DNA of 64,000 nucleotides from Candidatus Zixiibacteriota bacterium (GCA_024280835.1 JAJRPJ010000006.1:275656-339655); one strand, 5' to 3'; numbered from the stretch's first letter, positions 13,650 to 45,883 are shown. Numbers and translations: made by a program. The notes: generated from the letters alone by a model not told the origin.

Positions 13650-15095
13650 ATGTCTTGCTCTAGAACTTTGCGCATGCTAATGTTTCTTTCGTTTTCGCTA
13701 TGCCTGTCGACTTCGGCATTTGCCGTAGATACAGATGGTGATGGTATTGACGATTCTCTTGATAATTGTCCAACAATTTTCAATCCCTCACAATCAGACT
13801 TAGATGGCGATGGTGTAGGTGATGCATGTGATATCTGTCCTGGTTTTGATGACACTATTGATTCAGATGGTGATGGCGTCCCAGATGGTTGTGATATTTG
13901 TGCTGCTGGTGATGACACAATCGATACAGACGGTGACGGAATCCCTGACGCATGCGATGTTTGTCCAACAATTTTCAATCCCTCACAATCAGACTTAGAT
14001 GGCGATGGTGTAGGTGATGCATGTGATATCTGTCCTGGTTTTAATGACACTATTGATTCAGATGGTGATGGCGTCCCAGATGGTTGTGATATTTGTGCTG
14101 CTGGTGATGACACAATCGATATGGACGGTGACGGAATCCCTGACGCATGCGATGTTTGTCCAACAATTTTCAATCCCTCACAATCAGACTTAGATGGCGA
14201 TGGTGTAGGTGATGCATGTGATATCTGTCCTGGTTTTAATGACGCTATCGATTCAGACGGAGATGGTGTCCCGAATGGTTGTGATATTTGCTCTCTTGGT
14301 GATGACACAATCGACACAGACGTCGACGGGATTCCAGATGCGTGTGACAATTGTCCTACAACATCTAACTCTACTCAAGCTGATGGTGATGGTGACGGAT
14401 TCGGGGATGCCTGTGATATTTGTCTGCTAGGCGACGATACGCTAGATGCAGACGCTGATGGTACTCCTGATGCCTGCGATTTGTGTCCGGGATTTGATGA
14501 CACGATCGACACAGACGGTGATGGGATTCCAGATGCGTGTGACAATTGCCCAGCGATTGCCAATCCAACACAAACAGACTCAGATGCCGATGGTGTTGGC
14601 GATGCATGCGATATCTGTCCTGGTTTCGATGATGCGCTTGATGGAGATGGAGATGGCGTTCCAAATGGTTGTGACATTTGCTCTCTTGGTGATGATACAA
14701 TAGATACAGATGGCGACGGAATCGCTGATGCGTGTGACAATTGTCCTACAACATCTAACTCTACTCAAGCTGATGGTGATGGTGACGGATTTGGTGATGC
14801 CTGTGATATCTGTCCTGGTTTTGATGATACAATTGATTTAAACAATAACAACATTCCAGATGGTTGTGAAGGATGCTGTGTTGTTTCAGGTGACTATAAC
14901 CATGACGGATCATTCAACATTGCCGATGTAACAGCGGGTATCGCACGTATTTTTGGAGGTGGTCCCCCACCCTTCTGCCAAGATGAAGCTGATGCCAACG
15001 GCGACAACACATTTAACATTGCCGATGTCACGTTTGGTATCGCCAGAATTTTCGGCGGCGGACCAGCTCCTGTTTGTGGAACTACTGGTATGTAA
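13650..15095 (+). CDS. Secreted thrombospondin type 3 repeat protein with dockerin-like C-terminus
   Basis: 481 residues: signal peptide (cut near AFA-VDTDG, residue 25), then about a dozen calcium-binding TSP3 motifs of the form [12 protein letters not shown] with paired Cys, to about residue 408. A CC pair then leads to two dockerin/EF-hand-like repeats: [26 protein letters not shown] and a second with [16 protein letters not shown]. Start is supported by AAGGGGTTACTATG. The first half contains 195-bp tandem DNA repeats (65 codons) starting at 13770, 13965 and 14160. TSP3 arrays are rigid calcium-loaded spacers. The paired C-terminal motif ending in GGPxP is common in proteins of Zixibacteria-like genomes and may be a sorting or docking module (inference). 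Confidence 0.88.
13770..14354 (+). repeat. 195-bp tandem repeat, three copies
   Basis: Copies begin at 13770, 13965 and 14160. The first two differ at only a few bases (for example GATGACACT versus AATGACACT); the third drifts in its second half. The unit length is a multiple of three, so copy number can change without breaking the frame. Confidence 0.85.
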
Positions 15096-15399
15096 TCCAG
15101 CTTGCAAGACTACTCGATAACTTGACTCATGATATAATACAAGAAAACCCCAGTGAGTATTCTCACTGGGGTTTTCTTAATCCAAGCTCCCTGTCTTGTA
15201 CGACTTCACTAACTTTTTGAGTAGTGAAGACGCGGACTTAGTGATTGGTCAATTACTGGAACTTGGTGAGAATCAATAGCTTGATCTAAGATAGAACATT
15301 CAAGCTTGGATTGGCCATAGACAGGGAATCACTCCATTCATTAACGACTCACTCACGCGGCTAAGAGGAATCATGTAGCATTAGGAGGATCCTTTTGTT
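15096..15399. other. Convergent intergenic region
   Basis: Holds the strong bidirectional terminator at 15141-15178. The remaining 220 nt show no gene or clear signal. Confidence 0.5.
15141..15178 (+). terminator. Bidirectional intrinsic terminator
   Basis: Perfect 17-bp arms AAGAAAACCCCAGTGAG / CTCACTGGGGTTTTCTT with a 4-nt loop. T-rich on the plus strand and, by symmetry, on the minus strand. It separates the TSP3 gene from the oppositely directed metal operon. Confidence 0.9.
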
Positions 15400-16320
15400 T
15401 TAGTTCAGCCGATATTGCAGGATACGATTATTCCCGAAGTCAACCACGTATATATATCCGTCAGTTGACACTGCCACATCAGTCGGCCTGTCCAATTTGT
15501 TCTCTCCCATATCCTGCGAACCGAAAGCGTACAAATACTTACCGTTTTCCTCAAATACTTGTATGCGTGAATTCTCAAAGTCTGCTATAAATAATCTACC
15601 ATCCGGTCCCTGCTCTATTGCATCAGCAACCTCGAATTCACCAGCGTCACCGCCTTTTTGGCCCCAAACCTGTGGTGATGCTCTGTCTGTGAATTGTTGT
15701 ATGCGGTTGTTATAGGCGTCGGCGACAAAGACCTGTCCCTTAGAGCCAATGGAGACGTCTGTAGGATAGTAGAATTCTCCTACATCATGTCCCTCAGAAC
15801 CAAATTGTGAGTTGAAGTCGCCTGACGAATCAAACACTTCAATTCGGTGATTGTAAAAATCTGCAACATAGATTCTACCGTCGGTCCCAAATCCAACTCC
15901 GGCGGGTGAATCAAACTCTCCAGCTTCACTTCCGCTTTTGCCAAATGTGAACAAGAAACTGCCAGAAGTATCGAACACGCTGATTCGGTCAGCGCCGTAC
16001 TCTGGGACATATATCCTGCTATTGTCGTCAATGGCGAGATGCATTGGTCTGTCAAACTCGTCAGACCCGCTGTTCCATTGCATGAGAAATGTCCCGTCTG
16101 GTCCAAATTTCTGTATGCGATTATTACCAGCGTCACTAATGTAGACATTTCCATTTCCATCAAGAGCTACACCGATCGGCTCGTTGAATTGTCCGGCGTC
16201 ATTACCCTGTTCTCCCCAAGTGGAAAGATATGTAACAGAGCCATCCATTTCGGAGGTACATCCGACAGGCAGAAGAGCCAACAGCGTTATCAGAGAGCAA
16301 AACTTTTGAAAAGGAATCAT
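15400..16320 (-). CDS. NHL-repeat beta-propeller lipoprotein
   Basis: 306 residues with lipobox LPVGC (lipid Cys21). The mature protein is a six-bladed NHL propeller; each blade has the pattern GEFxxPxGVAxDxxGxVYVADxxNxRIQxF, for example DAGQFNEPIGVALDG and VYISDAGNNRIQKF. NHL propellers bind proteins, ligands or metals and some are lyases, but no catalytic residues stand out. It is the last gene of the metal operon: its ATG overlaps the stop of the HMA gene by one base (TAATG), so translation is coupled. A role as an envelope partner of the HMA protein is inference from that coupling. Confidence 0.88.
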   Translation of the reverse strand: MIPFQKFCSLITLLALLPVGCTSEMDGSVTYLSTWGEQGNDAGQFNEPIGVALDGNGNVYISDAGNNRIQKFGPDGTFLMQWNSGSDEFDRPMHLAIDDNSRIYVPEYGADRISVFDTSGSFLFTFGKSGSEAGEFDSPAGVGFGTDGRIYVADFYNHRIEVFDSSGDFNSQFGSEGHDVGEFYYPTDVSIGSKGQVFVADAYNNRIQQFTDRASPQVWGQKGGDAGEFEVADAIEQGPDGRLFIADFENSRIQVFEENGKYLYAFGSQDMGENKLDRPTDVAVSTDGYIYVVDFGNNRILQYRLN

Positions 16321-16850
16321 TATTGCTCCTCGAACGTTTCCGTCTTGATCAAAAACTGATGCAAGCTCTTGTTGTTACTCGATCTCACATTATCAATATC
16401 GCCGATTATCCGTACGGCAGCTTTGGAGGAGATTGCCGATTTTGCGAATGACAAAAAGGCGGATTCCCCTGTCACTGCAAATCTTGTTACATCATCGGTT
16501 TGTATCAAATAAATTGTACCATCACGCTCTATGAGAAACCCGGTAACAGTGACTATCATTTCACGCGGCGTGAATCCAGCATCCTTGACAGCAGGTCGTA
16601 CCGCCGCGATGTTTATTGCAACTGAATCTTTTGCTATGAGCTTGGCGCTTCCCTTATCGATATTGATGACCAACTCATGTACACCTTCGATCTTTTTAAG
16701 TTTCTTTTCAAGACCATAGGCGCAAAAAGGGCACGACATACCATCGACTCTCACTTCTACGCTTTCAATCTGCGCTTGCGATGGTTTTGCAGTAAATAGC
16801 AATAGCAAAACTAGCAACGTTATGGCGAAACTTTTACTCCGATAATTCAT
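16320..16850 (-). CDS. Periplasmic heavy-metal-associated (HMA) domain protein
   Basis: 176 residues: signal peptide at 1-26 (PSQAQ), HMA domain at about 28-98 with the metal site GMSCPFC (Cys40, Cys43), and a C-terminal beta-rich domain from about 98 (VTVTGFL, GTIYLIQT, AVRIIGDIDNV) that looks like a small OB-type barrel. MerP-like proteins carry only the HMA domain, so the added domain is unusual. No close SD is seen; GGAG lies 9 nt before the ATG. Fourth function in the operon order after the outer-membrane protein. Likely binds Hg(II), Cu(I) or another soft metal in the periplasm; which metal is not decidable here. Confidence 0.85.
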   Translation of the reverse strand: MNYRSKSFAITLLVLLLLFTAKPSQAQIESVEVRVDGMSCPFCAYGLEKKLKKIEGVHELVINIDKGSAKLIAKDSVAINIAAVRPAVKDAGFTPREMIVTVTGFLIERDGTIYLIQTDDVTRFAVTGESAFLSFAKSAISSKAAVRIIGDIDNVRSSNNKSLHQFLIKTETFEEQ

Positions 16851-16915
16851 TTTTCAATTCTCCATTCTTTTCATTAGTACAAATGCTGGCTATGTTCACT
16901 GGAACAATCTTGTCC

Positions 16916-17824
16916 TTAGAACAACAACAATCGGCTTCCCAAAGAAACCGTCCAATCCTTTGCCAATTGCACACCATGTTGTTCATTAACAATTGGATAC
17001 TGAAGTGATGTTTCCAAGAGCCAGCGACGGCCGCCAATGAATTGTATCCCTGGCGAAAGGAATACCACTGTGCCTCCACTGTTATTCACAGCAACGCTAT
17101 TGAGTTGATTGCGATTTGTTGTTGAGCCATTTATCTCAAGATAGGCATTGAGTTGCGGCGAAGGATATGTTTCGTACCGTCCAGGAAACACTCGATAACC
17201 AAAGGCTAAATTAAAGTTGAACGCATCACCAAAATCGAGCGAATCATGTGTGGTATTGAGATTATATATTCCCTCAGCGAAAAGCCCCATTCGATTTTTT
17301 ACCCAGCCAAACACTGTAGAAAGAAAAATGTCTGTTGAGCCAGTTCCTAGCGCCAGCGAGGAGTTTTCGTCGCCAGTCGGTAGTTTGATTCCAACTTTGC
17401 TGGCGATTCTGAATGTTTCGTTGCGTCTGTCGTATTGATAGAGTAAACGTTTGACAAACAACTTTATGTCTCCAAGCCCAGAATTGGTAATTGAGCCACT
17501 ATTCCTGTTAAGATCAATATTCACAAACGGAGCAATTATTCCGATTTGCCATTTGTCAGAAAATAGATTGTAGGGAATTACTACTGGCGTTATCATGGCA
17601 GTTATCCTGCTATCGGAAGGGTCAGGTATTTTGTTGCCGTTCGATCGTAATGTACCCGTACGAATGATTTTCCCGAAGAATCTGATGCCACGTCCTTCAA
17701 GTCCGAGCATGATAGGAGTGTCTGTATTGATAGGTGGCCCCTGTGCGTTGACGATGTCGGTTGCAACTAACAATGTTGCTATACATACCACGCCAACAAA
17801 CACATATTGCTTTATCTTCATCAT
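16916..17824 (-). CDS. Outer-membrane beta-barrel protein (MetA/transporter-like)
   Basis: 302 residues with signal peptide (cut near VNAQG, residue 28). Alternating hydrophobic strands with aromatic ends, strand-turn motifs SGLGDIKLFVKRLL and VGIKLPTGDENSSLALGTGSTD, and a final strand ending in LLLF match the family of transporter-like barrels annotated as phenol_MetA_deg. In such proteins the GLGDxxL and KLPTGD motifs are diagnostic. No Cys in the mature part. It lies between the thioredoxin-like and HMA genes of the metal operon, 30 nt after the former. It could pass metal or small molecules across the outer membrane (inference). Confidence 0.78.
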   Translation of the reverse strand: MMKIKQYVFVGVVCIATLLVATDIVNAQGPPINTDTPIMLGLEGRGIRFFGKIIRTGTLRSNGNKIPDPSDSRITAMITPVVIPYNLFSDKWQIGIIAPFVNIDLNRNSGSITNSGLGDIKLFVKRLLYQYDRRNETFRIASKVGIKLPTGDENSSLALGTGSTDIFLSTVFGWVKNRMGLFAEGIYNLNTTHDSLDFGDAFNFNLAFGYRVFPGRYETYPSPQLNAYLEINGSTTNRNQLNSVAVNNSGGTVVFLSPGIQFIGGRRWLLETSLQYPIVNEQHGVQLAKDWTVSLGSRLLLF

Positions 17825-17854
17825 TCGCTCTCTTAGCTAGGCAATCCGTCGATA

Positions 17855-18133
17855 CTACAGCGACTGACCGAGTCCCAATTCTTTGAGAGTTTGGATGTTG
17901 ATACACTGCTTCTCACAGCATGAGGCAAGTTGGCCGTCAATGACAACAGCGGGAATCGATTTGATACCGTACTGCTTTGCCTTATCGCGACATTCGTTAG
18001 TTTCACATCCCTTATTCAAGTCATAGACAATGACTTCGCAGCTAGAGCACGCGGCTTCTCGAACCTGTTTAACTGTTTCTTCGCATACCAGACATCCTGC
18101 GGTAAAGACTTCAATTGTTCTTACTTGTGACAT
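17855..18133 (-). CDS. Cys-rich thioredoxin-like protein
   Basis: 92 residues without a signal peptide, so cytosolic. Thioredoxin-fold pattern: strand RTIEVFTAG, active-site CLVC (Cys14, Cys17), and cis-Pro loop in IKSIPAVVIDG. Beyond the active site there are seven more Cys (CSSC, GC, EC, CC, QC), nine in all, which is far more than a redox thioredoxin needs and suggests metal binding. Start has a clear GGAGG. It begins 2 nt after the MerC-like stop, so it is co-translated. Similar small proteins occur in some mercury operons of Gram-negatives and archaea (from memory). Confidence 0.85.
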   Translation of the reverse strand: MSQVRTIEVFTAGCLVCEETVKQVREAACSSCEVIVYDLNKGCETNECRDKAKQYGIKSIPAVVIDGQLASCCEKQCINIQTLKELGLGQSL

Positions 18134-18135
18134 TG

Positions 18136-18564
18136 TTACACCTCCAAAGGATTTGAACTACAGTTCGGACAAGCGGAGTTTCCGCGTGTCATTAAGTTGT
18201 TGTCTGTTTTCTTTTTCGGCCAGTTGTTCCACACGGAAGCCGTCACTAGGATTGCGGCAAAGAGATAGAAAATCACATCTGGCCACTCTGCGATTTTTCC
18301 AACGATAATTCCCACTGAGGCAATGCTACCGAGCATAAACGGCTTCAGTCCCCTGCGCGATGTAGCTTTGTAGAAAAGACTGAATAGTGACACCGCCAGC
18401 AAAGAGCCAATAATGAAGAAGAAGTACGTTCCCTGCATCAGGAATCCGAGTCCAAGAGAAGAAAGTACGCCAGCGTACACGGGCCAACACGCTGGACAGG
18501 TAGCGTTTGGTAACACGGCGGCAATCAAGCCAGGAGCCGCAGACAACATCTTCTTCTTATTCAT
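18136..18564 (-). CDS. MerC-like inner-membrane metal transport protein
   Basis: 142 residues with four hydrophobic segments. The first contains ATCPACWP, the paired Cys (Cys23, Cys26) that take up Hg(II) in MerC/MerT-type importers. A second Cys pair lies in the C-terminal tail (ACPNC). The frame opens at an ATG at 18576, but GGGGGAA stands 3 nt before the ATG at 18564, which I chose. That start overlaps the end of the regulator gene by 8 nt, so translation is coupled. Either import or export of a soft metal is possible; the metal is inference. Confidence 0.8.
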   Translation of the reverse strand: MNKKKMLSAAPGLIAAVLPNATCPACWPVYAGVLSSLGLGFLMQGTYFFFIIGSLLAVSLFSLFYKATSRRGLKPFMLGSIASVGIIVGKIAEWPDVIFYLFAAILVTASVWNNWPKKKTDNNLMTRGNSACPNCSSNPLEV

Positions 18565-18982
18565 ATGTTCCCCCATTTGAAAAACTTTCTATGATTGGAC
18601 AGTTGCAAATTGAACTCTCCGATTCGCATTTTTGAACAAGATTCGAGAGAACAGACCTAAGGCTCTGCAGTTGTTCGATCTGCTCTTCAATAGTTTCGAG
18701 CTTAAGTTTTGCAACTTTGCGAACATCTTCTCGATTCGTTATCTCTCCGTCCGCTATATCCAGCAGTGACTTAATTTCGGCGAGACTGAATCCCAACGAC
18801 TGCGCGTTCTTTATGAATTTTACTCGCTCAATATCCTTTGAACCATACATCCTGTAGCCAGCAGTTGTTCGTTTCGGCACATCCAAGAGTCCATTTCGTT
18901 CGTAGTATCGAAGCGTCTCTTTATTGACTCCGGCCATGTCTGCCGCCTTGCCTGTCTGAATTAGTGTGTTATTCTCGGTCAT
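18557..18982 (-). CDS. MerR-family metal-type regulator
   Basis: 141 residues: N-terminal winged helix (IQTGKAADMAGVNKETLRYYERNGLL), linker GYRMYGSKDIERVKFI, long dimer helix and a C-terminal metal loop KCESESSICNCPIIE. The loop keeps Cys equivalent to MerR Cys117 and Cys126 with MerR spacing and adds one more. The position of Cys82 at the start of the dimer helix (ADGEITNRED here) has none. So the site differs from classical Hg-MerR. The open frame extends to 19009, but AAGGAGG sits just before the ATG at 18982. First gene of the operon, directly under a MerR-type dyad. Confidence 0.9.
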   Translation of the reverse strand: MTENNTLIQTGKAADMAGVNKETLRYYERNGLLDVPKRTTAGYRMYGSKDIERVKFIKNAQSLGFSLAEIKSLLDIADGEITNREDVRKVAKLKLETIEEQIEQLQSLRSVLSNLVQKCESESSICNCPIIESFSNGGTYE

Positions 18983-19009
18983 ATTGCCTCCTTCTGATAA
19001 TATATACAT

Positions 19010-19027
19010 CCTGTACTTAGGTACAGG
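19010..19027 (-). promoter_or_regulatory. MerR-type operator of the metal operon
   Basis: CCTGTAC-TTAG-GTACAGG is a perfect 7-bp dyad. Read on the minus strand it lies between a -35-like CTGAAA and an AT-rich TATATATTAT region, giving the long spacer with central dyad that MerR proteins untwist. The exact -10 is ambiguous. Confidence 0.7.
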
Positions 19028-45040: not shown

Positions 45041-45883
45041 TTGAAAAAACTAACCTCAATGTTCGCAATCGCCGCTTTGGCTTTTGCGTTCACCAGCGCA
45101 CCGGTTTCGGCTTGCGACGGCTCAACAGCCTCAGCCAATGGCAAGACTTGCAACAAGCAGGTCTCTGCCAGCTCTACCTGTAGTAAGGGTACTTCGGCCA
45201 CAACTGCCTCTGCGGACGGCGAAGCCTGTAATTCTTCCAAAAAAGATTGTCCTCTCGCTAATGGCAAATTTTCAGTCGCTTCTTTCAATGTCGAAGGCAT
45301 GACCTGTGGCGGTTGCGAAACTGGTTTGACCTCCGCTTTTGAGGCGGTTAATGGGGTCGTTATGATTCCGAATATGTCTTATGCTGCTGGCACGGCCAAA
45401 GTAATCTACGATCCGACTTTGACTAATGTCGACGCATTGACAAAGGTTGTTAGCGATGCTGGTTTCAAAAGCAACATTATGACCGCTGGCTTTACCACCA
45501 GCGACGCTGGCTCAAAGTCCAATGGCTCTTGTTGCGCCTCAAAAGGCGCCAAAGCCACCAAGACAGGCGCTTCAGCGTCCTGTTCAATGAGCAAAGACAA
45601 AGCGACAACAGCTAGCGCCGATGGCAAAAGCTGTAACGCTTCAAAAGGCGCCAATGCCACAACCACTGGTTCTACGGCCTCTTGCTCAATGAGCAAAGGC
45701 TCCGCGACCACCGCTTCCTCAGGGCAAGCCTGTCCGCATGCAACCAACGGCGATATGATTACCGCATCGGCTGATGGCACAGCAAGCTCTTGTTCACAGC
45801 TGACCTCAGTTGAGCGCAAAGCTTTCTGTAAGAAGTTTTGCAAATCAGAAATGAAATCAGACAAAAAGAGCACCGACATATAG
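45041..45883 (+). CDS. Secreted Cys-rich HMA-domain protein (metallothionein-like)
   Basis: 280 residues, TTG start with AAAAGGAG 6 nt upstream; signal peptide cut before CDGST (residue 24). One HMA domain at about 86-150 (VEGMTCGGCETG) is embedded in Ser/Ala/Thr/Lys-rich sequence with 14 further Cys. After the HMA domain a unit of about 35 residues repeats: CASKGAKATKTGASASCSMS and NASKGANATTTGSTASCSMS, each followed by a TTAS stretch. The mature chain thus has about 16 Cys, two Cys-Lys pairs at the end, and no aromatic-rich core outside the HMA. I infer a periplasmic or secreted soft-metal sink. It ends with its own terminator, so it is monocistronic. Confidence 0.8.
   Translation: MKKLTSMFAIAALAFAFTSAPVSACDGSTASANGKTCNKQVSASSTCSKGTSATTASADGEACNSSKKDCPLANGKFSVASFNVEGMTCGGCETGLTSAFEAVNGVVMIPNMSYAAGTAKVIYDPTLTNVDALTKVVSDAGFKSNIMTAGFTTSDAGSKSNGSCCASKGAKATKTGASASCSMSKDKATTASADGKSCNASKGANATTTGSTASCSMSKGSATTASSGQACPHATNGDMITASADGTASSCSQLTSVERKAFCKKFCKSEMKSDKKSTDI

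Follow-up and report, generated by a model that had tools for sequence, protein, structure and literature searches.

A six-gene mer-like operon without mercuric reductase in a Candidatus Zixiibacteriota bacterium and its possible role in mercury handling

Can a mer-like operon that lacks mercuric reductase (MerA) serve in mercury handling, or does it act on another metal? The question is raised by six genes in a 64,000-nucleotide stretch of DNA, referred to here as the window, from a Candidatus Zixiibacteriota bacterium (G000:C8:275656-339655; genome of 3.31 Mb in 20 contigs, 96% complete). The genes fill positions 15400-19009 on the minus strand. They encode a MerR-family regulator, a MerC-like protein, a Cys-rich thioredoxin (Trx), a Phenol_MetA_deg barrel, an HMA protein and an NHL propeller. 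With modest confidence, we favor an accessory operon of the mer type that serves a thiophilic metal, Hg(II) being the likeliest. The MerC, Trx and MerR families, Cys pairs that align with those of Tn21, an operator conserved in relatives, the recurrence of the modules, the neighbors of related Trx genes on plasmids and a MerA encoded in trans support this reading.

The region upstream of merR contains a mercury-type operator in an over-long promoter spacer (Table 1). Its core is GTAC-N4-GTAC, as in the Tn501/Tn21 mercury operator. The 20-bp distance between the -35 and -10 elements fits the expectation for a MerR promoter. GTAC-N4-GTAC occurs once in the window, compared to 0.25 expected. This lone match is weak evidence by itself, and is strengthened by conservation of the motif upstream of merR in relatives, including those whose MerR bears Cys82. 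The common pattern in the relatives is TGAAACCCTGTA...TACAGG, and only some have an exact GTAC-N4-GTAC. Translation of merR probably starts at 18982, where AGGAGG precedes an ATG. This start is preferred because the ATG of the gene as called, at 19009, abuts the -10 element.

The second and third genes also point to a mer function. The MerC-like protein belongs to a Mer family of inner-membrane transporters with paired Cys residues, and both of its CxxC pairs are conserved across 15 aligned proteins. The 27/30 pair is exactly over the MerC pair in Tn21, and the 136/139 pair is over or near the Tn21 C-terminal pair. The alignments include Tn21, Tn501 and CueR reference sequences; for MerR, alignments to solved structures agree. 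A search of plasmids with the MerC-like protein gave no match. In the Trx, residues Cys 14, 17, 29, 32, 72 and 73 are near-universal among 15 aligned homologues, and two further Cys are present in most. On plasmids, Trx relatives adjoin MerR and MerF, and in another case MerR, MerT and MerP. Other plasmid neighbors are a heavy-metal-responsive or MerR regulator, or other or unnamed regulators; three of the plasmid records viewed have no adjacent MerR gene. Within the phylum, the Trx is found in 15 of 132 genomes, eight of which have it in merR-merC cassettes, and it directly follows merR in two further genomes (G008 and G124).

Additional arrangements were seen around this Trx family. On a Burkholderia contaminans plasmid (L112), DUF2282, DUF692, DNA-binding and DoxX genes in a gig-like order directly precede a run of trx-merR-merT-merP plus a GDCCVxC (seleno)protein gene. 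At three other loci (L157, L158 and L160) the Cys-rich Trx directly follows a gene that resembles a CsoR/RcnR-type metal repressor, a candidate recognized by eye.

Comparison across genomes indicated that the modules of the operon recur separately. MerC-like proteins were matched in 11 of the 132 genomes. Apart from the window genome and G074, all of them have a DF-family (seleno)protein gene between merR and merC wherever the gene at this position is labelled; that of G049 is unlabelled. G074 is of the same genus as the window genome, and its cassette is merR-merC-trx and ends there. The merR-merC-trx core is also found in proteobacterial, planctomycete and Nitrospirae metagenome-assembled genomes. 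At L025-L029, from these phyla, the MerC-like protein carries the DF domain as an N-terminal fusion; in Zixibacteria, DF has a gene of its own. A second module is a barrel gene paired with a gene for an HMA protein with an OB-like domain. Close relatives of this pair are present in five genomes (window, G033, G034, G072 and G073, the last at a contig end). In all four genomes with a visible upstream side, the pair is preceded by MerR and a Mer-type transporter. In G033, G034 and G072 this transporter is MerT-like rather than MerC, a weak label based on Cys-Cys in the first hydrophobic segment (best model match, 16.6 bits). Outside the phylum, a search limited to plasmids gave weak matches to the pair.

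Elsewhere MerC is accompanied by distant barrels only, which close the G059 and G049 cassettes; another distant barrel is beside merR-trx in G008. These three barrels are suggestive only, as they are borderline or under the Pfam cut-off and were among the sequences used to train the model by which they are labelled. Assuming 2,700 genes per genome, about 0.07% of loci are expected to have a barrel no more than four genes away. The chance of three barrel lineages among 15 loci is about 1.5e-7, a rough figure that treats the lineages as independent.

A conserved six-gene operon was rejected. The six-gene order, MerC with a close barrel-HMA pair, and the NHL gene, which has no counterpart in the phylum at 1e-50, are found in the window genome only. 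The operon is best read from its sequence as a mosaic of a merR-merC-trx cassette as in G074, a barrel-HMA pair and a local NHL gene. The first-pass annotation had asked for conserved co-occurrence. This is borne out for the barrel and HMA genes, which recur with MerR and Mer-type transporters, and not for the gene order or the NHL gene. Its proposed check, that NHL and HMA-plus-barrel genes recur with MerC-like genes, failed as worded, the close barrel-HMA pairs of other genomes being with MerT-like genes.

None of the six genes encodes MerA. The earlier description without MerA holds for the operon only: a MerA is encoded on another contig (G000:C10:266763-268145). It scores 563 bits (cut-off 454), and a C-terminal SCCAG provides the Cys-Cys pair. 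The possibility that the organism lacks MerA was thus rejected. This MerA bears an N-terminal HMA domain and is part of a second mer operon, together with a MerR that has Cys82 and a MerT-HMA fusion. Between the fusion and MerA lies a gene for a 225-aa protein with no Pfam match (L115, 9445-10122, minus strand). G074 also has MerA. Besides these two, none of the 132 genomes has a MerA over the cut-off, and the best MerA-like matches in G063, G034, G033 and G072, which bear the cassette or the barrel, have no C-terminal Cys pair.

The gene layout is consistent with a single unit. With the merR reading frame as called, merR and merC overlap by 20 bp. The merC/trx, trx/barrel and barrel/HMA spacings are 2, 30 and 65 bp, respectively, and the HMA and NHL genes overlap by 1 bp. 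Weaker terminator-like sites in the operon are located inside genes only, in numbers near those of shuffled sequence, and no convincing terminator or promoter was found between parts of the operon. The spacing and the single strong terminator suggest that the six genes are likely transcribed together. The first-pass annotation is upheld in the six genes with their positions and families (gene calls and domain matches), in three junctions that overlap or nearly do so, in the single MerR-type dyad, and in a mer-like, MerR-controlled set predicted to span the cytosol, inner membrane, periplasm and outer membrane. Convergent with the operon, a secreted protein with many thrombospondin-type-3-like DxDGDG repeats and a dockerin-like end is encoded at 13650-15095 on the plus strand.

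Table 1. Features of the operon and its control region (window positions)
Feature	Position	Strand	Remarks
-35 element CTGAAA	19029..19034	-	From sequence; TTGAAA in most relatives; TTGAAACCCTGTA...TACAGGGTGT kept upstream of merR in relatives
MerR-type operator CCTGTACCTAAGTACAGG	19010..19027	-	Core GTAC-N4-GTAC at 19013-19024, within the 20-bp -35/-10 spacer
-10 element TGTATA	19003..19008	-	Predicted from sequence and comparison with relatives
MerR-family regulator	18557..18982	-	Probable start 18982 (open reading frame as called, 18557-19009); C117 and C126 equivalents, no C82, extra Cys in CNC
MerC-like inner-membrane protein	18136..18576	-	PF03203, 32.6 bits (cut-off 27.6); CxxC 27/30 in the first membrane segment, CxxC 136/139 at the C-terminus
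Cys-rich thioredoxin-fold protein	17855..18133	-	Thioredoxin_3, PF13192; 9 Cys
Phenol_MetA_deg outer-membrane-barrel-type protein	16916..17824	-	PF13557, 1.2e-11; signal-like N-terminus
Secreted protein with HMA domain (GMSCPFC) and OB-like C-terminal domain	16320..16850	-	PF00403; predicted structure
NHL beta-propeller, possible lipoprotein	15400..16320	-	PF01436, 4e-44; within the phylum, this genome only
Intrinsic terminator, strong	15140..15179	-	18-bp stem; 3' of the NHL gene, ends the unit

The three downstream genes encode envelope proteins. In the predicted structure of the HMA protein (predicted local distance difference test score, pLDDT, 79.5), the HMA domain at about residues 26-97 is followed by elements in the order β-β-β-α-β-β, which is that of an OB fold. 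The C-terminal region has no family match in the domain search, and the results of a fold search were filled by HMA matches. The HMA domain fits MerP, CopZ and copper-ATPase domains about equally well; it therefore does not point to a particular metal. For the barrel, the AlphaFold model is poor (pLDDT 46.5) and indicates that the protein is strand-rich, no more. The barrel probably serves as a channel in the outer membrane or anchors a periplasmic carrier. The NHL protein has NHL repeats, and the earlier assignment as a lipoprotein is unproven, its PVGC lipobox being imperfect.

Other HMA and barrel genes deserve mention. At L094, L095, L096, L098 and L101-L104, a second operon type places a Phenol_MetA_deg-type barrel immediately after a small HMA protein that is secreted, about 111 aa long and lipobox-like; some members also have a HupE/UreJ-like membrane protein. 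These operons suggest that metal-linked barrels are concealed under the family name 'phenol degradation'. The window also encodes, at 45041-45883 (plus strand), a protein of 280 aa that looks secreted and in which an HMA domain is followed by a long repetitive Cys/Ser/Thr/Ala-rich tail. It is a possible stand-alone metal binder.

We infer the identity of the metal, the direction of transport, the hand-offs and the function of the barrel as follows. A MerR-family dimer would hold the over-long spacer at the dyad, and metal binding would lead to activation. In the periplasm, the HMA-OB protein may take up the metal in a MerP-like manner. The MerC-like protein would carry it inward, from the CxxC in the first segment to the C-terminal CxxC. 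In the cytosol, the Trx may receive it and pass it to thiols or to the MerA of the second mer operon, which would be the sink. The barrel would provide the channel or anchor in the outer membrane, and the NHL protein is a local add-on.

Several observations weigh against an accessory mer-type operon for Hg(II). The MerC-like protein scores far under the NCBIfam MerC (equivalog) cut-offs, and the HMA protein scores far below that of the MerP model (33.5 bits; cut-off 92.55). Related cassettes in other genera of the phylum are in genomes without a recognized MerA, and hence without a known sink for inward Hg(II). The window regulator has Arg aligned to Cys82, so the Cys82, Cys117 and Cys126 set expected of a mer regulator is incomplete. 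Cys82 supplies the third ligand of the trigonal Hg(II) site in Tn501 MerR, where the C82Y mutant is seriously impaired (PMC5027573). Since Cys82 is absent, the inducing metal is uncertain. The soft metal outside the mer, cue and cad systems proposed in the earlier annotation is unproven; the operator and the transporter indicate mer.

The regulator raises another possibility, that retuning has made the sensor respond to a monovalent soft metal, Cu(I), Ag(I) or Au(I), which the operon handles as a cue/cop-like system made from Mer parts. Cys82 is also absent in the MerR of G074 and of the G033, G034 and G072 operons while C117 and C126 are kept, and Ser at the equivalent place in CueR was reported to exclude divalent ions (PMC10028694). 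HMA domains of the window type also serve copper. However, the aligned residue in the regulators without Cys82 is Arg or Pro, not Ser, and the extra Cys in the CNC motif of the window and G074 regulators could supply the missing third ligand. The highest-scoring model for the window regulator is mercury MerR, TIGR02051 (141.8 bits, under the cut-off of 150.85), compared to 103.9 bits for CueR, TIGR02044 (cut-off 147.4, not reached). The operator is of the mercury type and common to relatives with Cys82, and the operon includes no CopA-type ATPase or multicopper oxidase. Cys82 is present in the MerR of every cassette with a DF gene and of the second mer operon; the MerR tree is compatible with one or two losses. 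We regard a retuned sensor as unlikely.

The genomes without MerA suggest a different alternative. The operon may serve for sequestration or efflux: it would hold the metal outside the cytosol or export it by way of the barrel, and MerA would not be needed. MerC and Trx would then serve in thiol repair or work in the reverse direction. Such cassettes are found in near-complete genomes with no MerA over the cut-off, where import alone would harm, and a barrel and an HMA carrier recur beside Mer transporters. Known MerC proteins, however, are described as carrying Hg(II) into the cytosol (PMC3466566; PMC8261052), and no energized exporter (ATPase or RND) is present in the operon. We regard such a role as improbable. 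Very improbable is a chance neighborhood of a merR-merC-trx cassette and a separately regulated barrel-HMA-NHL envelope unit, which would agree with the cassette standing alone in G074, the NHL gene confined to the window genome and the two wider gaps, but not with barrel-HMA pairs after MerR and a MerT-like gene in three other genomes, the rarity of Phenol_MetA_deg barrels in the phylum (31 matches in 26/132 genomes) or the uninterrupted stretch between the parts.

The accessory mer-type operon remains our preferred explanation, and it bears on how mer systems are counted. The mer surveys covered here take MerA and MerB, or the neighborhood of merA, as their starting point; in one of them merC was reported solely from beta- and gammaproteobacterial mer operons (PMC3466566; PMC8261052). 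MerC-like cassettes extend to Zixibacteria, Planctomycetes and Nitrospirae. They are mostly without MerA in this phylum, with a recurrent Cys-rich Trx and sometimes a barrel. The literature covered, mostly papers available without subscription, gave nothing relevant on merA-less MerC cassettes or on this barrel family with metals. If Hg(II) is handled, the cassettes are a mercury-handling gene class that merA-based counts overlook, and the fate of imported Hg(II) without MerA becomes a question. An unlikely further reading is a MerA-independent trans-envelope pathway for soft metals. In it, a sensor that lost the Hg(II)-defining Cys82 would drive a MerC- or MerT-type transporter, the Cys-rich Trx as acceptor, the HMA-OB protein as carrier and a channel in the outer membrane, which together would provide traffic or sequestration instead of reduction.

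How does the operon compare with known systems? Unlike Cus/Czc efflux systems, it has no RND pump, membrane-fusion protein or TolC-type channel, and its barrel is of the Phenol_MetA_deg family. It differs from the cue regulon in lacking the ATPase and oxidase among its six genes. CueR-type sensors have Ser at the C82 position and a C112/C120 pair; the window regulator has both other Cys, and its residue aligned to C82 is not Ser. With classical mer operons (Tn21/Tn501 merRTPCAD), it shares a MerR-type regulator and operator, a MerC-family transporter with the same Cys pairs and a periplasmic HMA protein. It differs in the absence of MerA, which is encoded elsewhere in the genome, and of Cys82, in the addition of the Trx, the barrel, the OB domain on the HMA protein and the NHL protein, and in gene layout, merR leading the operon instead of being divergent. 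It would work in the manner of a mer transport operon. It matches classical mer in the operator and the transporter, and departs from it in MerA and Cys82. The second mer operon of the same genome (G000:C10) has the MerR family, a Mer-type membrane protein and HMA in common with it, whereas the MerT-HMA fusion, the HMA-bearing MerA, Cys82 and a different operator set it apart. The cassettes with a DF gene share homologues of merR, merC and trx in the same order, and the operator motif is shared within the phylum; most of them are without barrel, HMA and NHL genes, their MerR keeps Cys82, and the DF gene is absent from the window. The G033, G034 and G072 operons have a MerT-like gene in place of MerC and Trx and no NHL gene, but they keep the order of merR, transporter, barrel and HMA-OB genes, with 58-60% identity in the barrel and 37-38% in the HMA-OB protein, and their MerR likewise is without Cys82.

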